Source of the DNA: Sphingobacteriales bacterium
Lineage (GTDB): Bacteria; Bacteroidota; Bacteroidia; AKYH767-A; OLB10
Length of the DNA stretch: 59,693 nucleotides
Assembly: GCA_021299095.1 (NCBI GenBank)
Contig: JAJTFW010000013.1
Coordinates: forward strand, 1-59,693
Direction: 5' to 3'
This document shows, in pieces, positions 22,144-47,146 of this stretch (its first letter is position 1; every line of letters starts with the position of its first letter). Below the pieces are notes generated by a model, which was given only the letters and a program-made list of their open reading frames with translations, did not search any database and was not told the DNA's origin. Made by a program: the position numbers and the translations under genes.

Positions 22144-23223
22144 TTAAGCTTCATTTTTACCGGCGGAAACGTACCCCCTCCACTTTTCAAGTATAGCCAG
22201 AATATCATCTGGAAGTTCAGCTTCCAGGTACACCGTCCGTCCATCCGATGGATGTCTAAATCCAAGAGAACGGGCATGTAAAGCCTGTCGAGGTAATATC
22301 TCAAAGCAGTTATCGATGAACTGCCGGTATTTAGAAAAAACAGTACCCTTCAATATACGATCCCCGCCATAGGTCTTGTCACCAAACAGAGGGTGCCCAA
22401 TGTACTTCATGTGAATACGTATCTGGTGGGTACGTCCAGTTTCAAGTTTGCAGCGTATCAACGTCACATAGCCAAAGCGCTCCAACACCTCCCAGTGCGT
22501 AACGGCATGCTTGCCCTGGGATGCATCTGGAAATGCTTCCATTACTTTTCGGTCAACTGGACTACGACCTATGTGCACGGAAACGGTTCCTGAATCATCA
22601 GAAAAATCGCCCCACACCAAAGCAAGGTAATGACGATCAATAGTGCGATCAAAAAACTGTTTTGCCAGGTGCGATAAAGCCTGTTCATTCTTGGCAATAA
22701 CAATTAGGCCGGTCGTGTCTTTATCGATTCGATGCACAAGGCCTGGCCTGATCGAATCACTGGTCAATGGTTGCCCTTTCAATTCAGGGTGCATGAGATG
22801 AACGATGCCATTCACGAGCGTCTCCCTGTAATGTCCGTAAGCTGGATGAACCACCAGTCCGGCTTGCTTGTTGACCACGTAAAGCTGATCGTCCTCATAA
22901 CGGATATCAAGTGGAATTTCGTCCGGGTATAACTCGATTTCACGCGGAGGATGTGCGAGTACAACTGTAATGACATCACCAGGCTTTACTTTGTAACTGG
23001 ATTTGACTGACTTTCCGTTTACGAGTATAGTTCCTGCATCCGTCGCCCCCTGTATCCTGTTTCGAGAAACATTCTGAAGACGATTCATCAAAAATTTATC
23101 GATACGAAGCAGGCTTTGAAAACGGTCAACAACTATCCTGTGATGCTCAAATAGCTCCTCCTGATCCTGGTCTTGACCCAAGTCAGGCAAAAATTCATCG
23201 TGTTGGTCTCCTGAATCCATCAA
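22144..23223 (-). CDS. rluD: RluD/RluA-family 23S rRNA pseudouridine synthase
   Basis: It isomerises uridine to pseudouridine in 23S rRNA. The 359 residues contain an S4 RNA-binding domain (about 38-95, RIDKFLMNRLQNVSRNRIQ) and the catalytic domain with HRIDKDTTG at 164-172, where Asp167 is the nucleophile. The RTHQIRIHMKYIGHP and LHARSLGFRHP segments are also canonical. S4 plus catalytic domain and the motif fit RluD (helix 69) best, but other RluA-family targets cannot be excluded. The stretch of about 30 acidic residues before the S4 domain is extra. It is the last gene of the minus-strand run, 4 bases after the T9SS substrate gene. Confidence 0.9.
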   Translation of the reverse strand: MMDSGDQHDEFLPDLGQDQDQEELFEHHRIVVDRFQSLLRIDKFLMNRLQNVSRNRIQGATDAGTILVNGKSVKSSYKVKPGDVITVVLAHPPREIELYPDEIPLDIRYEDDQLYVVNKQAGLVVHPAYGHYRETLVNGIVHLMHPELKGQPLTSDSIRPGLVHRIDKDTTGLIVIAKNEQALSHLAKQFFDRTIDRHYLALVWGDFSDDSGTVSVHIGRSPVDRKVMEAFPDASQGKHAVTHWEVLERFGYVTLIRCKLETGRTHQIRIHMKYIGHPLFGDKTYGGDRILKGTVFSKYRQFIDNCFEILPRQALHARSLGFRHPSDGRTVYLEAELPDDILAILEKWRGYVSAGKNEA

Positions 23224-23227
23224 AGCA

Positions 23228-25120
23228 CTAACGCACGATAAATAGTTTGCCGCTTAATCGCTCACCATTACGAAGGATTACCGAAACATGATAATGGCCT
23301 GATTCAAAGCTTGAGCAGTCGATGAAATTAATATACTCTGATTCGAAAACGATTCGTCCTAGAGCATCAAACAAAACGATCCGCTCAGGCTTTAAGGAGG
23401 AATCAATGTTAAAATTCACCCTGTCGCGAGCAGGATTTGGAAACAATGCAATTGGAGACGTTACTTCAGGCTGGTCTCCGATCGATGTAATTCCGTAGGG
23501 CTCACCAAACACCGGCCTGATCATAAAGGAGCCATTCGCTACAGTCGTATTGACCCAACCGGAACCTGCGTTGTAATACATCCTGCTATTGCTGGATGTA
23601 TTTTTATCGAAACCGAGATGGATGCCGCTTGGGAAATTCTGTTGTTGCTGAAATCCGATGTAAATCGGACCATTGACGTACAGCGGCGCGTCAAGGAAAT
23701 AGGTTGCAAAACCGTTCAAACTGTCGGCGTACTTAGCACGTTGATTTGGCTTTTGATATAATACAGTCTCAGGACTGATGCTCGACCAGACCTTGAGGTT
23801 AAACAGCAAATTAGTCACCGTATCGCCATATTGGGCAAAAAAGAACTGAACTGCACGGAGCGTATCAGGTTGTAAGAAATCAAAACGCATGGCCACCTTG
23901 CCCGTGTTGGTGCCAATGAGATCATAACCACCTTCAGCAGAGCCATCATCAAAGCTGTAATAATTGTAAAAAACCTGTTTGAATTCAACCGTATCATTCG
24001 ATTTCAAACCGGGGAATGCATTTCCATTGGAGAAATAATTTCGAATGGTAAAATAGGTGCTATCGCTGGTTAATGCCGGACTATTAGGCAATGCCGTTGA
24101 GGTAATGGGAAATGTGTAATTAAGAAAAGCATTATTGGGTCGGCCGGGGAAAATATTGCCATTGGTGGCACCGATAGCGGATGTTTGAGTACCCTGGAAA
24201 TCATAAATGCGATGATTGAATCCCACATCAGCGGGTAGCGATGAAGTGACCCGGTAATACATTGCGGCAGAATCAACCAGCAAGTCTGACTGTTGCGTAG
24301 GACTCAAAGAAAGGAAATGTTCCCATGGCACAGCAGTGTAGTCCTGAAGCAGGCTAGATACAGGCCTAGTCATGGCTACATCTGACCAAACAGAATCAAC
24401 TGTTCCACCGCTGGGATCAAAAGATTGATAAAGTCTAACATAATCCAAGTGCCAGTGATCCAAAGCACCTGTTCGGGCACCGTGATTCCGAAATCGAAAA
24501 CGAAAGCCATCCTGTTGAAACACCGAGTTGGAATCAATATGTAACCAATAGGATTCAAATAGGGTATCTGCTCCATTGGAAACCCCGCCCTTCAAAAACC
24601 ACTGCCGTGACCACAGAGAATCAGTGGGGTTATAAAATTCCAGCACGAGTGAATCGGAAAGCTCTGGAGCGTCCCCGTTGCCTTTGCGCTGTACCATAAA
24701 GGAAAGGCTGACGCGCTTATTTAAATTTAACTGAATAGGCTGAGAGGTAAGGGTATCACAGCTGCCCTGTGAAGTTGAAAAACTGTTGTCATAAGGCTGC
24801 CCATTGGCATCAAGTCCATCAAATGTGGCAACCCCAACCGTGAGCATGTTTTTCGGAAGGTGGCTGTTGATGTAAACTCCACGATCCAGCCACAAGTTTG
24901 GATCAGCATAAGGCGATGTACCAGAAAAATCATCTGTAAATGGCAGGACCAGTGAGTTGATAGACTGCCGCCTAACCGTATTGTCAGTGGGTGTTTTCCC
25001 TTCCTGAAGCAACATCGTATTGGACCTGAGGGGCCGGATGACCTCGACTTGAGCACTTAAAGAGACGGGCAATACCAGTTGAAACAGGCAAATAATGGCT
25101 ATGCGCAATCGTTGGTTCAT
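23228..25120 (-). CDS. Secreted protein with T9SS type A sorting domain
   Basis: The ATG at 25120 is chosen because a clear signal peptide follows (MNQRLRIAIICLFQLVL, cleavage after LSAQ); a longer frame reaches 25231 without giving a signal peptide. The 630-residue product is exported by Sec. Its body is rich in beta-strand, Ser, Asn and aromatic residues and holds no enzyme motif I recognise; parts resemble jelly-roll segments seen in other Bacteroidota outer proteins. The last 75 or so residues are a type A T9SS domain (LFPNPARDRVNFNID, then FDALGRIVFESEYI and LFIVR). It lies 22 bases after the PASTA gene and 4 bases before rluD, so it is co-transcribed with housekeeping genes. Confidence 0.9.
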   Translation of the reverse strand: MNQRLRIAIICLFQLVLPVSLSAQVEVIRPLRSNTMLLQEGKTPTDNTVRRQSINSLVLPFTDDFSGTSPYADPNLWLDRGVYINSHLPKNMLTVGVATFDGLDANGQPYDNSFSTSQGSCDTLTSQPIQLNLNKRVSLSFMVQRKGNGDAPELSDSLVLEFYNPTDSLWSRQWFLKGGVSNGADTLFESYWLHIDSNSVFQQDGFRFRFRNHGARTGALDHWHLDYVRLYQSFDPSGGTVDSVWSDVAMTRPVSSLLQDYTAVPWEHFLSLSPTQQSDLLVDSAAMYYRVTSSLPADVGFNHRIYDFQGTQTSAIGATNGNIFPGRPNNAFLNYTFPITSTALPNSPALTSDSTYFTIRNYFSNGNAFPGLKSNDTVEFKQVFYNYYSFDDGSAEGGYDLIGTNTGKVAMRFDFLQPDTLRAVQFFFAQYGDTVTNLLFNLKVWSSISPETVLYQKPNQRAKYADSLNGFATYFLDAPLYVNGPIYIGFQQQQNFPSGIHLGFDKNTSSNSRMYYNAGSGWVNTTVANGSFMIRPVFGEPYGITSIGDQPEVTSPIALFPNPARDRVNFNIDSSLKPERIVLFDALGRIVFESEYINFIDCSSFESGHYHVSVILRNGERLSGKLFIVR

Positions 25121-25142
25121 GTTTGAGGGAAAGTAGTTTGAA

Positions 25143-25913
25143 TCAAGGTTGAAGTACCAAATGAATTGCATCACCTTGTTTAACAAGCATGGTATCGCCG
25201 GGTTGAGGGGTCTGACTAACCACTTTGGCACTCATTGAATCGGATGGTGTCTTTAAATACTCAATGCGACCAGGCAACAATCCTGATCCGCGAATAACAA
25301 ACAATGCCTCCTCCAAAGTCAGGCCTACAAGAGTTGGTATATTGACTTCCGTATTGCCCAGTCCATCTCCAAGCGCAAGGTCAAGTGCACTACCCTTGGG
25401 AACTTCATCGCCGGGACTCAAGGTCTTTCCTCGAAAAGAAACAGAAAGGACAACATCCTTGGCTAAATCGGGTTTATATTCAACCTTCCCGCTTTTAAGT
25501 CCATAGGAATATAATATGGCTTCAGCCTGTCGCTTACTTACATCAATAAGATTAGGTATTCTGACTTGAGGAGGCACAGTCCTCGTAATCGTCAAATAGA
25601 CTTTCCGACCCAACTTGACAGCCTCACGGGGCGAAGGGTCCTGGTCGATAATCACACCGGGCGCCTTGTCAAGAATGAAAACAGACGAATCCGAAACCTC
25701 CACAAGTAAATCGGATGCAGCGGCGAGCTCAACAGCTTTTGCCAATTTCAATCCTTTGAAGTCAGGAACCTCTACTGTAGTACCATGATTGGTGTAGGCC
25801 CCAAGCCACAAATAGGCCAGGACAAGAATCACAAGCACGGCCGAAATACACATCAGCAAATGCTTGACAAACAACTTTGAGCGAATAAATAGATGTAAAT
25901 CAGAACTGCTCAT
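25143..25913 (-). CDS. PASTA-domain membrane protein
   Basis: The ATG at 25913 is preferred to the TTG at 25919. The 256-residue protein has a short cytoplasmic N-terminus, one membrane helix (around LLMCISAVLVILVLAYLWLG) and three PASTA repeats outside (VEVPDFKGLKLAKAVELA; IPNLIDVSKRQAEAILY; IPTLVGLTLEEALFVI), each ending in a beta-strand and a QxPxPG-like turn. PASTA repeats bind peptidoglycan fragments or muropeptides in kinases and penicillin-binding proteins, but here there is no kinase or transpeptidase domain. It follows the D-Ala-D-Ala ligase gene almost directly, an arrangement I recall from other Bacteroidota, which supports a cell-wall role by inference. Confidence 0.9.
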   Translation of the reverse strand: MSSSDLHLFIRSKLFVKHLLMCISAVLVILVLAYLWLGAYTNHGTTVEVPDFKGLKLAKAVELAAASDLLVEVSDSSVFILDKAPGVIIDQDPSPREAVKLGRKVYLTITRTVPPQVRIPNLIDVSKRQAEAILYSYGLKSGKVEYKPDLAKDVVLSVSFRGKTLSPGDEVPKGSALDLALGDGLGNTEVNIPTLVGLTLEEALFVIRGSGLLPGRIEYLKTPSDSMSAKVVSQTPQPGDTMLVKQGDAIHLVLQP

Positions 25914-25915
25914 AA

Positions 25916-28609
25916 TCAAACTACTTCGGCGGCCCGTTTCCGTTTTTGCCCGTAATCAAGAATCTTATCGATAAAATCGAATGGCTTGTAATGTGCAATT
26001 GCAGCCTGATGAAAAATGCAGGTTGCGGGTGTCATGCCAGGCAGGGAGTTTACTTCAATAAACACAACTTCAATACGATCCGGATTGAAGATCCGCACAA
26101 ACGCATCTATCCGCGCATATCCTTCCACGTGTAACAAACGGGCCGCACGTTCAAGCTCCTTTTTCACGGCTGTAGAAATCCGCTTGTTTGCCTCCGAGTC
26201 GTCACTATAACGTGCAGGTGTGATATTTTGACCCTGTCCGGCGAGGAATTTCTCCTCTAAAGAAAGGACATCTCCTTCAGACAAGGCTTCGGAAGCCTCA
26301 AACACCTCAAACTGAAGTCTTCCACCTTCATCCAAACTTGTAAGCATCCCTCCAGTTATCTCAATGAATCGTTGAGCTCCGTTTGCACGGATCAACTCCT
26401 CGAATAATACGACGTCCTTAAACGGAAACTCCTCTTTGAATTTAATATTGAGTGTTGAGGCCAGTTGCTCATCCAGAAGTTCATCGCCTCTAAAAATCAA
26501 AGAGGCATAGGCACTCAACTGCTCTCTGCTGCGAATAATCCGGACAGCGGAACTACAGCCATCATCGACTGGTTTCGCAACACATGGATATCCGAAGCGT
26601 TTCTCCACAACATCGATAAACCCGACAGAATCGTTCAACCAATCGGCCTTACGACCCAAATAATGTCCTGCCACATGAAATCCATTGTGGGCAAGTAATT
26701 CGTTGGTTTTGTACTTATCGATTGTCGTCTGTGAGGAAAGCGGTCCGGATCCATTGTAGGGCAATCCAACACGATCCAGTTCTTTCTGAATCGAGCCATC
26801 CTCACCGGGTCTACCATGCAATGCAATGAAGGCGATATCACATTGCGACGGCAGATCCTCCAAGCTAATTCGTTGAGGAGCTTCCAGATTTTTCAAACTG
26901 GCAAATCGTTCGGTGACACTCTTGCATTCTTCAATGATCCTGCTGATGATAGGATGCCTGTTGAATTCAAAGACCTTTTCCCGTATGTCATCTGCATTGT
27001 CCTTCAGCAGTAAATTTATCGGAATGGAAAACAACTGAAGTTCCTGGCTATTGCCGGTAAGAAAAATAGGCGTAACGTGGTACTTCGGCGAGGATGCAAG
27101 TTTTTCATAAATATTCCGTCCACTCTCTACCGATATATGACGCTCGGAGGAATACCCTCCAAGTATCACCACAGCCCTTGTGTGAATCTGACTGGAGCGG
27201 CGTGCATTGTCCATGAGTTTATCCAGTCGCTGAACCAGCGAAGGGATTTTATCGAACGAACGAAAATCGACAAGCCGTGCACGAAGAGAACGATGAATGA
27301 TGAAGGTGATGAACTGGGTAGGATTTAGTCCAATCTCAGCAGCCTGGTGAAAAAAGAACGAACTGGGCATCATACCTGATGTTGTATTCGGATCGTTCAA
27401 CACGATCTCCCCCGCATCGGAGATAAACCCGTCTATTCGTGCATAGACCGAAAATTTCAATTCGTCAAACAAGCGCTGACACTCACTCCTGATGCGCTGT
27501 ATTCCTTCCTCATCCAAATCGATTGGCGTCACTTTCCGAGATAGCCCCGGCAAATACTTTGAGCGATAATCATACAACTCCTTACCCTTTCTGATCTCAG
27601 TCGGAGGCAAAGCAATAGGAGTTCCATCCTCGTCCTGAATAACAATACAGGAAAACTCCCGACCTGATATGAATGACTCTGCAATAATGGTGCTTTCACC
27701 AGAAGCTGCAGACAACAACACTTCGTACTCGTCGTTGGAGAACAAATCGATGAGTACCGACAAAAGTTCTTCCGGATGATGAATCTGACGACTCCTGATC
27801 ATCAATGGCAGACCGATTCCGTCACGAATATCGGACACCTCGCGAACCCATTGGACTTTCTGATCGAAAGCGAATTCATCCCATTCCGCCTTCGTAATCC
27901 TGCGCAGAAAAAATGACTTGTCAACTGATGAACTAAAAGCACTCAAGGACCGGTCAGATACAACAGTAACGCCGATGGAGGAGCCTTGATTGGCTGACTT
28001 CACAACAAATGGCAATCCGAGCCTGGAAACGCATTGCTCCATCAAATCAGAACTATCGGCAAGTTCCCAGGCTTTTCGACTAACAACCATCGTTTCTGGC
28101 ACCCTAAAGCCTGCATTTCGCATGAAATGACGCTGAGAGGCTTTATCCATACCAATTGCAGAACTCAAAATACCAGACCCTGTGTATGGTATCCGATAGT
28201 ATTCGAGAAGCCCCTGAATGCGACCATCTTCACCATCACTACCATGAAGGCAGAGAAAGGCCATGTCAATCAAACCGGAAAGGGCGCTTAACTCAATTCT
28301 GGATCCGATTTTATTTATCAGCCGGACCTGTTCCTGCCGATCAAGGTCACCAAGGCACTCCGCATAAACCTGAAAAGCATTTACGCTTAGGGGAACCTGG
28401 TCCGGTGAGGGATAAAAATCCCGTATACTTCCCTTGTAAATGAACTCCCAATTGAGCAATACGAAATTTCCGAAACTATCGACGAATACCGGAATAGGCT
28501 CAAACAATGCCTTGTCCAGGTTATCATAAACGGTGCGGCCGCCTGCAAAAGAGACTTCCCGCTCCCTGGAAGTTCCACCAAAGAATATTCCGATCCGAAT
28601 CTTATCCAT
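25916..28609 (-). CDS. Tandem (two-copy) D-alanine--D-alanine ligase-like ATP-grasp protein
   Basis: D-Ala-D-Ala ligase joins two D-alanines with ATP for peptidoglycan precursors. A normal enzyme has about 310-370 residues; this one has about 897 from the ATG at 28609 (an upstream TTG at 28618 is less likely). It is two ligase copies in one frame. Copy 1 (about 4-445) begins IGIFFGGTSREREVSFAGG and has the ATP-grasp segment LPFVVKSANQGSSIGVT; copy 2 (about 478-890) begins VVILGGYSSERHISVESG and has YPCVAKPVDDGCSSAV and IEVNSLPGMTP (851-861). In copy 1 the metal-binding signature is LNDPNTTSGMM (about 404-414) instead of EVNTxPGMT, so it may be weakened or specialised. Copy 2 keeps the acidic-Asn pair. 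It sits upstream of the PASTA protein. Confidence 0.85.
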   Translation of the reverse strand: MDKIRIGIFFGGTSREREVSFAGGRTVYDNLDKALFEPIPVFVDSFGNFVLLNWEFIYKGSIRDFYPSPDQVPLSVNAFQVYAECLGDLDRQEQVRLINKIGSRIELSALSGLIDMAFLCLHGSDGEDGRIQGLLEYYRIPYTGSGILSSAIGMDKASQRHFMRNAGFRVPETMVVSRKAWELADSSDLMEQCVSRLGLPFVVKSANQGSSIGVTVVSDRSLSAFSSSVDKSFFLRRITKAEWDEFAFDQKVQWVREVSDIRDGIGLPLMIRSRQIHHPEELLSVLIDLFSNDEYEVLLSAASGESTIIAESFISGREFSCIVIQDEDGTPIALPPTEIRKGKELYDYRSKYLPGLSRKVTPIDLDEEGIQRIRSECQRLFDELKFSVYARIDGFISDAGEIVLNDPNTTSGMMPSSFFFHQAAEIGLNPTQFITFIIHRSLRARLVDFRSFDKIPSLVQRLDKLMDNARRSSQIHTRAVVILGGYSSERHISVESGRNIYEKLASSPKYHVTPIFLTGNSQELQLFSIPINLLLKDNADDIREKVFEFNRHPIISRIIEECKSVTERFASLKNLEAPQRISLEDLPSQCDIAFIALHGRPGEDGSIQKELDRVGLPYNGSGPLSSQTTIDKYKTNELLAHNGFHVAGHYLGRKADWLNDSVGFIDVVEKRFGYPCVAKPVDDGCSSAVRIIRSREQLSAYASLIFRGDELLDEQLASTLNIKFKEEFPFKDVVLFEELIRANGAQRFIEITGGMLTSLDEGGRLQFEVFEASEALSEGDVLSLEEKFLAGQGQNITPARYSDDSEANKRISTAVKKELERAARLLHVEGYARIDAFVRIFNPDRIEVVFIEVNSLPGMTPATCIFHQAAIAHYKPFDFIDKILDYGQKRKRAAEVV

Positions 28610-28678
28610 GCCCACCAAAGGTAATAAATTCGAGGGGCGAAATTCACTCGGGAAGACATGGTTTTCAGTCTAATTGTG

Positions 28679-29278
28679 TTAATGATCCGCACCGAGAGAA
28701 TCAAGGTATTCTCGAAGTACTGAAACTGCCCTTGCACGGTGGGAAATCGACTGTTTTACCGCTGCCGGCAATTGGCCGAAGGTATCCTGATAACCCTCAG
28801 GAATAAAAACCGGATCATATCCAAATCCATTGGAGCCGAGCGGTCTTTCGGCGATTCGACCGTGTATCCGCCCCTCGAACAATCGAAGCTCTCCACCTAA
28901 CACAAGAGCAATAACCGTAACAAAACTTGCCCTTCGATCTAAAATTCCTTCCATCTGATCCAGCAAATACATCATATTTCGAGCATCATTTCGGGGAACA
29001 CCGGCAAAAAACGCAGAATCAACACCTGGCCGATCACCCAAAGCCACAACTTCCAGACCACTATCATCGGCCAGTGCATTAGCACCAATGGCCTGCCAAA
29101 CATACAAAGCCTTCTGAGCAGCATTTCCTGATATTGTGCCGGAGGTTTCAGGCAATTCTTCAATTATCCCGGCATCTGACAAACTTTTAAGGAAGAAATT
29201 GGGCGGCAAAGCACTGCTAATTTCGAGGAGCTTATTGGGATTCCTGCTCGCAAAAACGAGGCTAAATTCAGAACTCAT
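28679..29278 (-). CDS. rdgB: XTP/dITP diphosphatase (RdgB/HAM1 family)
   Basis: It hydrolyses non-canonical purine nucleoside triphosphates such as dITP and XTP, keeping them out of DNA. The 199 residues show all family motifs: FASRNPNKLLEI (9-20), ADDSGLEV (70-77), PGVDSAFFAG, GSNGFGYDPVFIP (148-160) and SISHRARA (177-184). It lies between fkbM (22 bases) and the tandem ligase gene (69 bases), all on the minus strand. Confidence 0.96.
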   Translation of the reverse strand: MSSEFSLVFASRNPNKLLEISSALPPNFFLKSLSDAGIIEELPETSGTISGNAAQKALYVWQAIGANALADDSGLEVVALGDRPGVDSAFFAGVPRNDARNMMYLLDQMEGILDRRASFVTVIALVLGGELRLFEGRIHGRIAERPLGSNGFGYDPVFIPEGYQDTFGQLPAAVKQSISHRARAVSVLREYLDSLGADH

Positions 29279-40233: not shown

Positions 40234-41171
40234 ATTTCCATAAGCGGCTACATGCACTCTCGCATTACAAACCGGTTTACAAGCTGGTTTCGGCGGGAAA
40301 GCGGATTGTACTACCGGGTTTTGATGGATTGCCACTGTTCGAAGTAGTTTCCTTCTTCATAAAGAGGCTCGAGGAAGGAGAAATTCAAACACGTGCTCGA
40401 TCACTTGCCTTCAGCTTTCTGCTCGCGCTATTTCCTGGGATCATTTTCATCTTCACAGTAATACCCTATATACCTATCGATTCATTTCAGGATAGGCTAC
40501 TCGAACTAATACGGAATTTCTTGCCCGCAAGCACATTCGAATTGGCCCACGAAACCATTGAGGATATCGTTCGCCATCAGCATGGGGGATTACTTTCTTT
40601 CGGCTTCGTGTTTGCCCTTTATGTAACCACAGATGGAATCATCGCACTGATGAACTGGTTCAATAAAAGTTTTCATGGAAAAAGAGAGCGAGCTGGCTGG
40701 AAACAAAGACTGATTGCTTTGGGAATAACGCTGTTTTTATCCCTCTTGATTTTTATTGCAATTGGGCTGGGTATATCGTCTGAATTCCTTTTTTATTACT
40801 TGGAATCGAAAGGTGTCCTGGTTAACTTGATGCAACTCATTTTAATAACCGCAGGGAAATGGGTGATTCTGCTTGCGTTGTGCTTTACAGCCATTTCAGT
40901 ACTGTATTATTTTGGCCCTTCCAAACGGGAACGCATTCGGTTTATTTCCGCGGGATCATCACTGGCCACCATGCTGTTTGTAATCACTACGCTCGGTTTC
41001 AACTATTTCATTACCCACTTTGGACAATACAATAAATTGTACGGATCAATCGGAACGCTGATCATCATCCTGCTCTGGCTCTACATCAACTCACTGGTAC
41101 TGTTGGTTGGGTATGAATTGAATGTATCTATCCGGAAGGCGAGAAAGATTACTCAATTTCCCATTCCGTAA
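40230..41171 (+). CDS. YihY/BrkB family inner-membrane protein
   Basis: The 313-residue protein has about six membrane helices and the family region RARSLAFSFLLALFPGIIF near residue 57. Further helices include SLLIFIAIGLGISSEFLF and a final GTLIIILLWLYINSLVLLVG. YihY proteins are conserved but without proven function; older annotation as ribonuclease BN is not supported. It overlaps nadC by 4 bases and, at its end, overlaps the convergent PKD gene by 23 bases. Confidence 0.9.
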   Translation: MNFHKRLHALSHYKPVYKLVSAGKRIVLPGFDGLPLFEVVSFFIKRLEEGEIQTRARSLAFSFLLALFPGIIFIFTVIPYIPIDSFQDRLLELIRNFLPASTFELAHETIEDIVRHQHGGLLSFGFVFALYVTTDGIIALMNWFNKSFHGKRERAGWKQRLIALGITLFLSLLIFIAIGLGISSEFLFYYLESKGVLVNLMQLILITAGKWVILLALCFTAISVLYYFGPSKRERIRFISAGSSLATMLFVITTLGFNYFITHFGQYNKLYGSIGTLIIILLWLYINSLVLLVGYELNVSIRKARKITQFPIP

Positions 41172-44100
41172 CGGACCCAGGAAGCCGTTTTTGCTCTACC
41201 CATTGGCCCTGATTATTCATCATTTCGACGCCATAGGATTCAACCCCTGAATCCCAGTCGAAATACTTGGTCCAGATCAGAATGTCGCCCGCTCCGGCCT
41301 CAAGCCACTGAAGCAGTATGGATGCGCCTGGACGCCCCTGTATGGGGTTTATATCGCATACATTTCGAACCACTACACGGTAGATATATCGATTCCAATC
41401 GACATCGGTTGAATAATCCTGATACGCATAAACACCTGCCGGCACTGTCGCAATCACCTGGAATGAAAGATTATCAAGAGACCGCTGAATTTCATAATGG
41501 GAAACGGCCTGCGGAAGAACAGCTGGAGCTTTCCATTCAGTAAGTACATAATGGTCATTGACCACGGTGGTGCGAAGCACATCCACGTATTGATCCTGGA
41601 TTGAGCTCAAGGGACGAGCAATAACATCGTTACTTCTCGATTCGACTCCTGCAACATTGCACACACCCTGTGCAATGATTCGATAAGTGTAATCCAACGG
41701 ACACCAGGCCGTAGTATCGGTGAAGCTGAACGTTGCCGAAGAAACCGTTCCTATCGGGAGGAAAATACCATTGGGCTGATCCTTCCTTACGACTAAATAC
41801 GAATTGACAGCGCAGTCACCATAAGGAGTCCAGTTCAGGCTCACCTGTTGAAACCCAGCCTGCGCCTGAAGATGAACGGTCGTATGAGGTAAGGCTGTTA
41901 ACAAGGATAGTGCATAACCACAGAAATCAACTGCAATGACCTTGTAAGTATAAGGCCTCAAATCGGTTTGTACATTGTAGTCGCTGTATGAAATAAGACC
42001 CGCCATTCCAGAACCAGGGACAATTCCAATACTGTCAAACACAGTGCTGGACGGATTAAACCGATAAACAGTGTAGTGATCTACATCGTTAGCAGCTGAT
42101 GCCGGCCATTCTACCAAGACCTCTCCTGATCCTTCAACCGTTACACGCTGCAAATCAACAGGAGGAGGAGGCAGTGTATCAAACACGGTTATGTATCCAG
42201 TCTGCGTCATGGAGTCAGAGCAGGTCTCCTGATTGATAACGGTAAGCGTTACCGTATATGTACCCGGTGAATTATAAACAAGCGTTGGATTTTGAGAACT
42301 CGAGCTAGTTCCGTTTCCGAGATCCCATAGGAATCGCGGTTGATCCAACTGGGTAGACAATGAATTAAACTGAACCGACAACGGAGGACATCCAGCACGA
42401 ACATCAGCAGTTAAATCAACTTGAGGACGTGCTACGACCAAAATGGAATCAGCCATTTCAAGTGTATCGACACATCCATTCAGATTTGACGCAATCAATC
42501 GGATTCGATATATCCCAGGCTGAGCATAGGTATACTGAGTCAAAGGACCAACTATGGTAGTTCCGTCACCCATGTCCCATTCAAGATTATCTGAGTAAAG
42601 AGATGTGTCAGTAAGTTGAATAGTCAGCGGAGCACATCCGGCCTTGGTGTCCAATGCGAAGCCCGGCCGAGGTGCATCAAACACCATGACCGGTACCGAG
42701 TCAGTAGCCGAACAACCAGTGGAATCGTACGCCTTAAGAAAAACCATGTAATGACTACCTGCAGTATAGGTGTGTACCGTGTTACCCGGATTCGGAACAA
42801 GTTCAAACGTACCATCATCGAAGTACCACTCGTAGGACACTGCACCCGCACTTGTATTTGTAAATTGAATATCTACAGGTGCACAACCGCCCGGGTTATT
42901 AATGGTGAATGAAGGGAAAGGTCCACGAGCAACTATTGAGTCGAGGGAAAGGGTATCCTGGCAATTGAACTTATTGGTGATGATTAAAGTCGGCGTGTAG
43001 GTTCCATTCTGATAGTTTGCATTTCCAATGGGTTGATTTCCGAAGGTTCCATTTCCAAAATCCCATGACCAAACAACCGCGTTCAAACTATTGTCTGTAA
43101 ATGTGACCGGCAAGGGTGCACAACCACTTAACGCTGTTGTAGTATAGGATGCAACAGGGGTGTTGACTTCTATCAGGGAATCAATCCGAAGAGTATCTGT
43201 ACATCCGGAAGGAGCTGTCACAATCAAACTGGCATGATAATATCCGTCTAAACTCAGTGTAAGTGAAGGATTGAGGTTGCTCGATACACCACCGGCCCCA
43301 AAATCCCAATGCCAATTTGTTGCATTAGAACTACTGTCGCTAAACTGTACAGAAAATGGAGCACATCCACCGGTTGATGAAACTGAAAAGTCGGCACGAG
43401 TAACCTGCGGCGATGGTTTACGCATACTTTTAACGCATCCGTTCACATCTTCAACAGTCAATGTGATGGAGTCGGTTGGTTGTCGCGAGTAAATATGAAC
43501 AGGATGTTGCGCAGATGAAGTGTCACCATCGCCGAAGTTCCACAACCAGGTCACGGCGTCCGTACTCAGATCGGTGAATTCTGCAAGGACTGGTTCGCAT
43601 AAGCTTGAATAGGAAACCGAAAAGTCGGGTACAAGACGGCTAACATATACCACGTTGGGGATAGATACGGTACTACTGCATACGTTATCATATGCCGTGA
43701 GTGTCACAGTGTAATATCCAGGTGCGGTGAAGAAGTGGCGTGGGCTCGATAGCGTAGAAGTTGATCCATCACCGAAGTCCCACAACCAGGATGAACTGTT
43801 TACTGAAGTATTGCCAAACTGGTAGTAAATCGTACTACAATTTGTCCAAGGCGAACCCATGATAAAACTGGCTTCCGGCTTGAAGATGTAGACTGCATAC
43901 GGCATGGTATATCGGCGTGAACATCCTGTTATGTCTGTTACAGTCAGAGTTACCCAGTATACACCCTTTTGCTGAAACACGTGCTGAGGATTCCTCAATG
44001 TTGAACTTGTACCGTCACCAAAATCCCAGAGATACTGCTGGAAATTGACATTACCCGGATCGAATGAAATGGTATCACCTGCACAACCGCGTCGCACATC

Positions 44101-46905
44101 CGACCTCAACTCACCGGCTGCACTGACGGAGAAGGACTTTGAAACATAGGAACTGCATTGATTGGTATCGGTTACCTGAAGGGATACCAAATATGTAGCC
44201 GTTGCATTGGGATATACATGAGTTGCAAAAGGGCCCGTGGCGGTTGCACCACCAAAGTCCCACAAAGCAGTTAAAACCGGAACATTAACCCACGTGCTAA
44301 CCTCTACAGTCCTACACAATGAAACAGGTTGAATGGTAAAATCGGTGACCGGCTTCACTACCCAGATGGTATCCGAAAACACAAGGGTATCAATTGATCC
44401 GTCAGGCAAAGTCACATAGGCGATTGGATTGAAATAACCGGCTGAATTGAACACATGCTCGGGCGAGAAGGTTGTACTTGAGTCGCCATCACCAAATACC
44501 CATAGGACCGATATTGCATCCGGATAGGGATTCGAAAAATTAACTGCAAATGGAGCGCAATTCTTTTTCAGCGGAATATACGGCGGCACTCCGCCGAGTC
44601 CACCCGGTGTTCCTGCAGCCGAGCCGAAACTGATCGGCGGATAATCATATGTATGAGAGCAACTGTCGTTGCCTATGGTAAGCATGATGTGAAACGGACC
44701 CGAACCAGTAAACGTGTGTTGAGGATTCTCTGTCGTATCAGTGGTGCCATCACCAAAATCCCATAACCACCAGGTCGCATTGGTCGAATTGGCATAGAAC
44801 TGCACATTGAAGGGTGCAACAGTATCGGCGGTTATGAAACTGGCAAATGCACCTAAACCACTGATTTGAACTGCACCATTCGCTTGTAGTGTGGTAGAAC
44901 AGCCCGATGCGGTGGTCGCCACCAACGTTACATTATAAACACCCGGATTCGGAAACGTATGTGTAGGATGTTGCAGCGTTGAACCCTGTCCAAATCCGAA
45001 ATTCCAGGACCAGGAAGTTGCGTTGAGCGATGTATCGGTAAACTGAACCACATAGGGCGGACATTGGCTTACCGTGTAGGTAAATCCGGGTTGCGCACCA
45101 TCAATCACGAACGTTTGAAACTGGGGGATTGATTGCGCACAGCCTGAATTGCCTTGTGTAGTCACAAGAGAAACTGTAAACACTCCAGGTGATTGATACA
45201 CATGATACGGATTGGGATCGGATGATGTATTACCATCTCCAAAATCCCATGCATACGTGGACGCCCCTGATGCATCCGAAAAATTCACTGCATAAGGTGC
45301 GCAAGCAAAAACAGTGTCGGGCGCCTGATAATTGGTTTGAAGCGAAGAGACCTGAATCAGATTGTTATAGCTAATTGTGTCCGAGCAGCCATTGATCGAA
45401 TCGATTGCAATGAGCGTAACACTATAACTTCCGTTTTGAACGTAGGTATGACTTGGGCTTGCCGAAGTAGATGTAGTGCCATCGCCGAAATTCCACATGT
45501 AGTGTGTTGCGCTTGTGGACTGGTTGTTGAAATTCACATCCAATGGAGCGCATCCTGAGGACAAATCGGCTGCAAAAGCGGCGACAGGCTTAAGCACAGT
45601 CACCTTGAATCGTGCAGTATCGGTATCGCTACAACCATTTGGTCCGATTGCGGTGAGATATACCTGATAAACCCCTTGGTTGGGGTAATTGTGTGGGAGC
45701 GGACTGGCAAGTAATGAGGAATCCCCATCGCCAAAATCCCAATGCCAGCTAAAAGGTGCTGTACTACTTTGATTGGTGAAGGAAACAAGAAGCGGAGCAC
45801 AACCTGTGTGGTTTGTAATGCTGAAATCGAAATCGGGTTTGTCTTCCACTTCAATTACTCCTGCATTAATGGTTTGTATGCAACCATTGAGGTAGGCAGT
45901 GGTAAGCTCAACCTGGTAAGTACCCGAATCTGAAAACACGTGGTTGACCTGTGAACCTGTCCTGACAGATGCTGTATCGAATGTCCATGTAAATACAGGT
46001 TGCCCAGGTGCGCTGGCATTAAAGACCACGCTGAGTGGCTCACAACCGGATTGCACGGACGAAGTGAATACGGGCACCGGATTGTACATCACATCAACAA
46101 GTGCAGACCTGGCTATCGTTGCACTGCAGCCGAGTGCAGAAACCATAGTTACTGAAACATCAAAACTGCCGGTATCCCCATACACGTATGACATTGAGGT
46201 TGATCCTGCCAATGCAGCGGAACCATCTCCGAAATTCCATTCAAATGACTGTGCATGTTGAACAGAACTCAAATCGAATTGGAACACATGTGACTGATCG
46301 CAGGACATGGTATCCAATGCAGTAACAACAGCAGTTGGTGACGGATGAACGGTAATGTATGCTAAACGTTTCAGAGATTTGGAACAGCCACTTATGGAAT
46401 TGAAGACGATGAGTTCCACATTGAAAACTCCGGATGTATCATAAACGTGGACAGGAGAATCTTGATAACTGATGTTTCCATCTCCAAAATACCAGACCGA
46501 AGAATCATATCCCACAGAGGAATTGGTGAAATTGAATCCCTGCTGACCTTGACAGCCGGAAAGACTCGAAACCGAAAAGTCAACGGAGACAGGGGATGGA
46601 GATACAACAATTTGTCTTGTAGAACTGCTTGTTTGAACGCCCGAATTAACCGTGAGTGTAATTGTGTAAGTGCCAGGAATCGAATAGAGCCATCCGGCAT
46701 TGGGTGATGAGGACGTATCATTCGTGGTCCCAGTAACGCCAAAATCCCAAAGCAAGGAACCCGATATGTTAGCTGATGTGGAGCACTGAACCCCGAGCGG
46801 CGCACATCCCGAATTGACATTCGTAATGATCGTTGGAGACTGCGCCTGTGCCTGAAACAAACATGCCAACAGGGCGATGCACAAAGCTGTGATCCACCTG
46901 ATCAT
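41149..46905 (-). CDS. Giant secreted PKD-repeat protein without a sorting domain
   Basis: The ATG at 46905 is chosen because it begins a signal peptide (MIRWITALCIALLACLFQA, cleavage near AQAQ); starts at 46995 and 46950 only add residues before it. The 1918 residues hold about 19 PKD domains, each marked by a WxFGDG-like strand (WHWDFGDG, YMWNFGDG, WLWDFGDG, YLWDFGDG and so on), followed from about residue 1600 by four fibronectin III-like domains. PKD proteins serve in adhesion or matrix. The protein ends in mid FN3-like repeat (SVTEWEIE) and no type A or B T9SS signal follows, so it may be cut short. Its end overlaps the convergent yihY gene by 23 bases. The LLAC segment might instead act as a lipobox, less likely. 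Confidence 0.85.
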   Translation of the reverse strand: MIRWITALCIALLACLFQAQAQSPTIITNVNSGCAPLGVQCSTSANISGSLLWDFGVTGTTNDTSSSPNAGWLYSIPGTYTITLTVNSGVQTSSSTRQIVVSPSPVSVDFSVSSLSGCQGQQGFNFTNSSVGYDSSVWYFGDGNISYQDSPVHVYDTSGVFNVELIVFNSISGCSKSLKRLAYITVHPSPTAVVTALDTMSCDQSHVFQFDLSSVQHAQSFEWNFGDGSAALAGSTSMSYVYGDTGSFDVSVTMVSALGCSATIARSALVDVMYNPVPVFTSSVQSGCEPLSVVFNASAPGQPVFTWTFDTASVRTGSQVNHVFSDSGTYQVELTTAYLNGCIQTINAGVIEVEDKPDFDFSITNHTGCAPLLVSFTNQSSTAPFSWHWDFGDGDSSLLASPLPHNYPNQGVYQVYLTAIGPNGCSDTDTARFKVTVLKPVAAFAADLSSGCAPLDVNFNNQSTSATHYMWNFGDGTTSTSASPSHTYVQNGSYSVTLIAIDSINGCSDTISYNNLIQVSSLQTNYQAPDTVFACAPYAVNFSDASGASTYAWDFGDGNTSSDPNPYHVYQSPGVFTVSLVTTQGNSGCAQSIPQFQTFVIDGAQPGFTYTVSQCPPYVVQFTDTSLNATSWSWNFGFGQGSTLQHPTHTFPNPGVYNVTLVATTASGCSTTLQANGAVQISGLGAFASFITADTVAPFNVQFYANSTNATWWLWDFGDGTTDTTENPQHTFTGSGPFHIMLTIGNDSCSHTYDYPPISFGSAAGTPGGLGGVPPYIPLKKNCAPFAVNFSNPYPDAISVLWVFGDGDSSTTFSPEHVFNSAGYFNPIAYVTLPDGSIDTLVFSDTIWVVKPVTDFTIQPVSLCRTVEVSTWVNVPVLTALWDFGGATATGPFATHVYPNATATYLVSLQVTDTNQCSSYVSKSFSVSAAGELRSDVRRGCAGDTISFDPGNVNFQQYLWDFGDGTSSTLRNPQHVFQQKGVYWVTLTVTDITGCSRRYTMPYAVYIFKPEASFIMGSPWTNCSTIYYQFGNTSVNSSSWLWDFGDGSTSTLSSPRHFFTAPGYYTVTLTAYDNVCSSTVSIPNVVYVSRLVPDFSVSYSSLCEPVLAEFTDLSTDAVTWLWNFGDGDTSSAQHPVHIYSRQPTDSITLTVEDVNGCVKSMRKPSPQVTRADFSVSSTGGCAPFSVQFSDSSSNATNWHWDFGAGGVSSNLNPSLTLSLDGYYHASLIVTAPSGCTDTLRIDSLIEVNTPVASYTTTALSGCAPLPVTFTDNSLNAVVWSWDFGNGTFGNQPIGNANYQNGTYTPTLIITNKFNCQDTLSLDSIVARGPFPSFTINNPGGCAPVDIQFTNTSAGAVSYEWYFDDGTFELVPNPGNTVHTYTAGSHYMVFLKAYDSTGCSATDSVPVMVFDAPRPGFALDTKAGCAPLTIQLTDTSLYSDNLEWDMGDGTTIVGPLTQYTYAQPGIYRIRLIASNLNGCVDTLEMADSILVVARPQVDLTADVRAGCPPLSVQFNSLSTQLDQPRFLWDLGNGTSSSSQNPTLVYNSPGTYTVTLTVINQETCSDSMTQTGYITVFDTLPPPPVDLQRVTVEGSGEVLVEWPASAANDVDHYTVYRFNPSSTVFDSIGIVPGSGMAGLISYSDYNVQTDLRPYTYKVIAVDFCGYALSLLTALPHTTVHLQAQAGFQQVSLNWTPYGDCAVNSYLVVRKDQPNGIFLPIGTVSSATFSFTDTTAWCPLDYTYRIIAQGVCNVAGVESRSNDVIARPLSSIQDQYVDVLRTTVVNDHYVLTEWKAPAVLPQAVSHYEIQRSLDNLSFQVIATVPAGVYAYQDYSTDVDWNRYIYRVVVRNVCDINPIQGRPGASILLQWLEAGAGDILIWTKYFDWDSGVESYGVEMMNNQGQWVEQKRLPGSVTEWEIE

Positions 46906-47146
46906 TCTGCGTATTTGCACTGCCTGGAAATTTGGGTCTTGGGTTTGCATACGCCCGTTCTTACGAAAGAAAATGCCCCTGGGTTCCGTGCGCATGAAAA
47001 TTAAGGGCGATTATCGGCTAGAATGGGTAAAATAGACCCGGTTTCTTACACCTCAACTCAAGTCCAAAGCAGTCAATATTTGTATTTATTTTATTGATTT
47101 TCAATTTTTTAAACAGATTTCGGGGCGATAGGACTACCTTTAGGGC
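46906..47146. other. Divergent region between the PKD gene and uvrA
   Basis: About 240 bases, A+T-rich near the uvrA side, with divergent gene starts. TACCTTTA lies just before the uvrA ATG but lacks a TTG at 19 bases, so no promoter is assigned. No further gene seen. Confidence 0.4.

Follow-up and report, generated by a model that had tools for sequence, protein, structure and literature searches.

The window, a stretch of 59,693 nucleotides corresponding to positions 1 to 59,693 of contig JAJTFW010000013.1 in the Sphingobacteriales bacterium assembly GCA_021299095.1, carries on its minus strand a ligase gene that runs from an ATG at 28609 to a stop at 25916 and encodes 897 amino acids, with an in-frame TTG at 28618, ahead of this ATG. 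The product is a tandem D-Ala-D-Ala ligase (Ddl) made of two halves, A and B. The gene, its parts (with aligned positions numbered as in E. coli DdlB), and its neighbours are listed below in the direction of reading.

28679..29278, minus strand: upstream neighbour of the ligase, of the RdgB/Ham1 family (found on that side at 42 of the 80 tandem loci)
25916..28609, minus strand: tandem D-Ala-D-Ala ligase gene, 897 aa, the sole Ddl found in the genome
27266..28609, minus strand: half A (residues 1-448), a Ddl fold whose D-Ala pocket is ordinary and which has Asp in place of Glu270
27695..27904, minus strand: insertion of ca. 70 residues (236-305), specific to half A in the alignment
27392..27394, minus strand: Asp406 (motif NDPNTTSGM), aligned with the Mg2+ ligand Glu270; Asp in 105/105 A halves
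27188..27265, minus strand: linker, residues 449-474, of low conservation, with a helix at 454-475 in the model
25919..27187, minus strand: half B, residues 475-897, Ddl fold with ATP/Mg2+ residues kept and the acceptor pocket altered
26555..26557, minus strand: Cys685, aligned with Ser150; Cys in 105/105 B halves
26246..26248, minus strand: omega-loop residue Phe788 (EEKF), which aligns with Tyr216; Phe in 105/105 B halves
26021..26023, minus strand: Thr863, aligned with Ser281; Thr in 105/105 B halves
25143..25919, minus strand: protein combining an N-terminal hydrophobic stretch with three PASTA domains, directly downstream and overlapping the ligase stop by 4 bases
23228..25231, minus strand: protein ending in a Por secretion (type IX) sorting tail; such a gene follows downstream at 37 of the 80 tandem loci
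22144..23223, minus strand: RluD-type pseudouridine synthase at the end of the cluster (present downstream at 24 of the 80 tandem loci)

The original prediction was that this frame holds two complete Ddl copies, each with its own FGG/LGG-type N terminus, and both points held; the strand, left unstated there, is minus. The starts read FFGG and ILGG, and each half taken alone passed the Pfam gathering cut-offs (34.6 bits for the N domain and 24 bits for the C domain), with 86.0 and 123.6 bits for half A and 75.8 and 63.7 bits for half B. In the whole protein, Dala_Dala_lig_N matched in two stretches (E 9.9e-47), together with Dala_Dala_lig_C (E 1e-53). The NCBIfam model TIGR01205, which names the protein D-alanine--D-alanine ligase, gave 364.1 bits for the entire sequence, although its cut-off of 245.65 bits was passed only by summing the halves (A alone 226.5, B alone 144.2). 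The halves are identical at 122 of 388 aligned residues (31%) with a score of 278, compared with a top score of 57 for 100 shuffled versions of B against A, so that a chance repeat was ruled out. A derivation of one half from a different ATP-grasp family was also excluded, both by the Pfam search of each half and by structural matches to Ddl and VanA. Finally, an assembly or annotation artefact fusing two neighbouring genes has virtually no probability, and is refuted by the same 890-residue frame being open in 30 of the 34 genomes of the order and by the A/B junction being spanned in 150 listed genomes of the class (one with an internal TGA).

An AlphaFold2 model of all 897 residues, for which 50 tandem proteins were aligned, had a mean pLDDT of 87.3 and a pTM of 0.87, with the lowest confidence (pLDDT <50) at residues 778-793, in the omega-loop region of B. 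Structural comparison used VIA-align, which covered only Foldseek's own matches, in a list filled mainly by half A. Half A (model residues 2-448) matched the Ddl of T. thermophilus (6u1d; Z 37.6, rmsd 2.0, 323 aligned), and half B (model residues 475-892) matched a resurrected ancient VanA (3se7; Z 36.7, rmsd 2.1, 314 aligned), tied with the DdlB of P. aeruginosa (8evy; Z 36.5). The covalent dimer proposed earlier survives in part: the model makes a covalent arrangement of two subunits within one chain plausible, but a simple homodimer does not agree with 31% identity and different fixed changes at catalytic positions. If the chain is a covalent dimer, it would be a covalent heterodimer. Crystallised Ddls share a dimer whose interface involves helices alpha3-alpha5 and alpha8, with some residues near the active site (PMC6899670), so cross-talk between A and B would be physically reasonable.

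The source genome (2.51 Mb, 96% complete) gave exactly two matches in a PF01820 profile search, read as the two halves, while PF07478 gave four matches in the tandem gene and weaker ones elsewhere. The latter were rejected as separate ddl genes because no PF01820 match lies on them; they are probably ATP-grasp genes of a biotin-carboxylase-like or carbamoyl-phosphate-synthase-like type. Thus, the two profiles found no separate ddl in this genome; at 96% completeness, one could have been missed. The pathway partner MurF is present as a MurF-Alr fusion (1176.6 bits, contig C19). Alongside this fusion, G000 contig C86:5698-6948 carries another MurF-like match, which scores 205.6 bits over model positions 26-455, with one TAA read through.

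Among the 34 genomes of the order, 30 carry the full tandem, one a fragment at a contig end, and one a one-domain Ddl, with two giving no match. The class sample (396 genomes, counted by hand) divided into 161 with the tandem, 227 whose sole match is weak and of one-domain type, four with only an A-type match (family f15, see below), and four with none. The 161 comprise 150 genomes whose listed matches span the A/B junction and 11 more assigned by E values of 1e-141 to 1e-200, partly inspected; all 32 inspected among the 227 weak-match genomes had one-domain genes (one cut by a contig end). Outside the class, none of 223 genomes in a phylum sample of 296 had two PF01820 matches. Bacteroidota names are borne by 78 of 80 named tandem loci, and three of the loci belong to named cultured strains, Rhodocytophaga aerolata (L088), Adhaeribacter soli (L105), and Rufibacter roseus (L117). 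One locus titled Candidatus Saccharibacteria (L072, CAJCJB010000005.1) has a tandem Ddl 57% identical to that of the window and is probably a mislabelled or mis-binned Bacteroidota contig. The tandem Ddl is a real, ancient, and widespread variant, ordinary within its clade. It had been asked at the outset whether such fusions are widespread and well described: they are widespread (161/396 class genomes), but we found no description of a tandem Ddl in the literature searched, which as a set of open-licence papers is weak evidence, and the arrangement is apparently undescribed so far.

The phylogeny of both halves was assessed with a careful tree of 86 rows (15 tandem proteins halved, three f15 proteins, one-domain Ddls from the class (31) and from the phylum (20), and DdlA and DdlB), from which the long-branch row C_L155 was left out. 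The halves grouped together, apart from one-domain Ddls: A, B, and f15 formed one group against the 53 one-domain sequences (support 99/95, 100% of 200 bootstrap trees), with B itself a single group (100/100). In a quick tree, the stems of A and B measured 0.84 and 1.21 changes per column. This topology fits one duplication and fusion, which would be older than the sampled tandem proteins; such an event is termed gene elongation (PMC7284861).

The gene order also bears on this origin. A PASTA gene lies immediately downstream in 38 of the 75 tandem loci having >900 downstream bases and is absent there in 37. The order ddl, PASTA gene, type IX protein occurs in the one-domain loci L226 and L231 too, and in L227 and L228 a PASTA gene adjoins a one-domain ddl in divergent orientation. 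Gene order common to tandem and one-domain loci speaks for duplication in place. None of three f15 loci has a PASTA gene immediately next to it, which, with the 37 tandem loci, means that the link is not strict. Thus, the PASTA neighbour, first noted as suiting a peptidoglycan role, does lie directly downstream, but it says little on the fusion, being found beside some one-domain ddl genes and missing from about half of the tandem loci.

To compare the two active sites, we used 105 distinct tandem proteins (114 before duplicate removal, two of those incomplete) and 52 one-domain Ddls of the phylum. The roles of the numbered residues are those given in the DdlB literature. Half A keeps K97, K144, S150, K215, Y216, R255, D257, N272, G276, and S281 in 105/105 proteins and the substrate residue E15 in 104/105, the exception being one truncated start. 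Two of its Mg2+ ligands, D257 and N272, are therefore in place, while the E270 position is Asp and position 275 is Ser in all 105; among the one-domain Ddls, S150, Y216, E270, P275, and S281 are each found in 52/52. Half B keeps K97, K144, K215, R255, D257, E270, N272, and G276 in 105/105. Its E187 fell in a gap in all B halves of the main alignment but was Glu in 15/15 B rows of a separate one, so the gap is probably an alignment effect. The changes to Cys150, Phe216, and Thr281 occur in all 105 B halves and in 0/52 one-domain Ddls, and position 212 is Leu in 104/105 and position 153 Ala in 103/105. Since it lacks S150, Y216, and S281, B was filed as a Ddl-family fold and not as a D-Ala-D-Ala ligase. 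Mean conservation was 0.722 for A and 0.725 for B, compared with 0.409 in the linker region (residues 446-477); the A insertion (236-305) reached 0.516, below the value for the whole of A. With conservation equal to that of A and far above that of the linker, B is under comparable constraint and is maintained by selection.

With Phe at 216, B has a hallmark of the D-Ala-D-Lac ligases found in lactic acid bacteria. Ser150 and Tyr216 are conserved in Ddls producing D-Ala-D-Ala alone (PMC7691350), and whether a lactic acid bacterial enzyme has depsipeptide or dipeptide activity is decided by Phe or Tyr, respectively, at the 216 position (PMC5996685). The tandem could then consist of two active ligases, with A making D-Ala-D-Ala and an F-type B, which has Phe at the deciding position, no Ser150, and all checked chemistry residues kept (105/105), making D-Ala-D-lactate or another D-Ala-D-X. 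We regard this as unlikely. The F-type D-Ala-D-Lac ligases known from lactic acid bacteria (LmDdl2 of Leuconostoc, 1ehi) likewise have Phe at the Tyr216 position, but B differs from them in also having Cys at Ser150 and in scoring 60.8 bits against the NCBIfam D_ala_D_lac model, whose cut-off is 550; it groups with A and with no one-domain set in the tree, which held none of those ligases. In addition, none of the nine window genes scanned is of van type, and f15 lost B. Precursors ending in D-lactate are not known to us from Bacteroidota, which also counts against a second ligase of this kind.

At the other extreme, both halves might make D-Ala-D-Ala, the changes in B being mild and the fusion only raising local dose or stability as a covalent dimer. 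The chemistry residues kept in B would agree with this, as would the Y216F variant of E. coli DdlB, which still holds ADP and a phosphoryl phosphinate according to the title of structure 1iow. However, three substitutions fixed in every B half and in no one-domain Ddl, and the long separate stems of A and B, make equal halves very unlikely.

Family f15 bears on the roles of the halves. Its genomes measure 6.4-8 Mb, and the three that were searched with PF01820 gave a single gene apiece. The ORFs, 561-590 aa long, hold A (40-41% identity over residues 1-464) followed by a tail of ca. 100 residues; Asp270 is kept, and position 275 differs in being Pro instead of Ser. Against a profile of the first 112 residues of B, the tails from three of the four genomes (all but G607) scored 31.4, 22.4, and 15.1 bits and were the top three of 603 sequences (three real tails and 600 shuffled), the weakest having E = 1 at Z = 1e6, not significant alone. 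With the A profile, none of the three was among the best 8 rows, all of which were shuffles. No further B was found beyond the tail by tblastn. The careful tree nested f15 within A, beside the tandem proteins L236 and L088 (support 100/98), where the quick tree had placed it beside A. A position inside A together with a B-type tail argues that the tandem came first and that B was later cut down, with A retained as the only Ddl. This family is the best evidence for A as the D-Ala-D-Ala active site, and suggests that B is non-essential for that activity; as the Glu270 to Asp change touches an Mg2+ ligand, the competence of A is argued from f15, in which A is the only Ddl.

That f15 retains A with merely a short N-terminal piece of B, and that B has lost pocket residues, could also mean that B has no catalytic activity and persists as a pseudo-subunit solely because folding or the shape of the dimer requires it. 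We find this doubtful, since the checked ATP and metal residues are kept, the Mg2+ site of B is more canonical than that of A, and the piece left in f15 stops before the GEDG region. Pseudoenzymes usually lose ATP or metal residues.

Families f3, f10, f90, f97, and f103 contain tandem genomes and other genomes with a one-domain Ddl instead, which suggests that an ordinary Ddl took the place of the tandem and argues that the tandem does the job of Ddl. Some of the replacing genes resemble E. coli DdlA (L143 400, L146 355, L147 363, and L173 305 bits). In f103, G610 and G624 (L173 and L174) have only a DdlA-like one-domain enzyme, likely a replacement by an ordinary ligase. Another one-domain Ddl, L242 (G175:C55, minus strand), sits in a 944-aa open frame whose ca. 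340 preceding residues match no Pfam family; this long N-terminal extension may be merely open frame.

We consider it rather probable that one duplication and fusion gave rise to a sole Ddl in which A makes D-Ala-D-Ala and B is an ATP-binding partner with an altered pocket, most likely tuning A. The computations show the two-fold architecture, that no other Ddl was found, one common origin, the fixed residues, the equal conservation of the halves, and, in f15, the loss of B while A was kept. From the sequences we infer the rest, namely A as the D-Ala-D-Ala active site, ATP binding by B, and any regulation. As a mechanism, ddl would have undergone tandem duplication and fusion in an ancestor of many Bacteroidota, and the two copies would form a pair of Ddl subunits within a single chain and divide the roles between them. 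Half A would bind two D-Ala and ATP and make D-Ala-D-Ala for MurF. Half B, in which all residues checked for nucleotide, Mg2+, and transition-state binding are kept but the acceptor pocket has its fixed changes to Cys, Phe, and Thr, would be a partner subunit binding ATP and a D-Ala-like ligand and would most likely tune A, possibly also making dipeptide or depsipeptide. Put more generally, B could either bind ATP and D-Ala in a regulatory role or act as a second ligase that uses a different acceptor. A more speculative extension, to which we assign a low probability, is that many Bacteroidota combine a Y-type site with an active F-type ligase site, so that a second D-Ala-D-X product is made or sensed, a capacity lost in f15.

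Ddl, which antibiotics target (D-cycloserine), is a textbook example of an essential enzyme, and most descriptions present it as a homodimer whose subunits are equal. Each half of the tandem has the same fold as one-domain DdlA and DdlB (PF01820 and PF07478, TIGR01205), A has nearly all of the catalytic residues, and the same role is presumed because the tandem is the only Ddl. It differs from them in having two diverged copies per chain, Asp270 in A, Cys, Phe, and Thr in B, and the A insertion of ca. 70 residues. The large subunit of carbamoyl phosphate synthetase (CarB) also consists of two ATP-grasp halves derived from duplication and fusion, each specialised, and offers a comparison of working principle only, since its family and substrates are others. 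The bifunctional MurC-Ddl fusion (NF011171) is also a fused Ddl, but joined to another enzyme, while here Ddl is fused to its own paralogue. A large bacterial group thus has Ddl frozen as a fused pair of unequal subunits, and behind the usual annotation, D-alanine--D-alanine ligase, stand two active sites that differ from each other. The tandem makes directly testable why Ddl is dimeric and whether one subunit regulates or complements the other, and the f15 truncation is a natural experiment separating the halves. Elsewhere in the window (41149-46995), an open reading frame encodes a 1948-aa protein with many repeated modules that resemble PKD domains.
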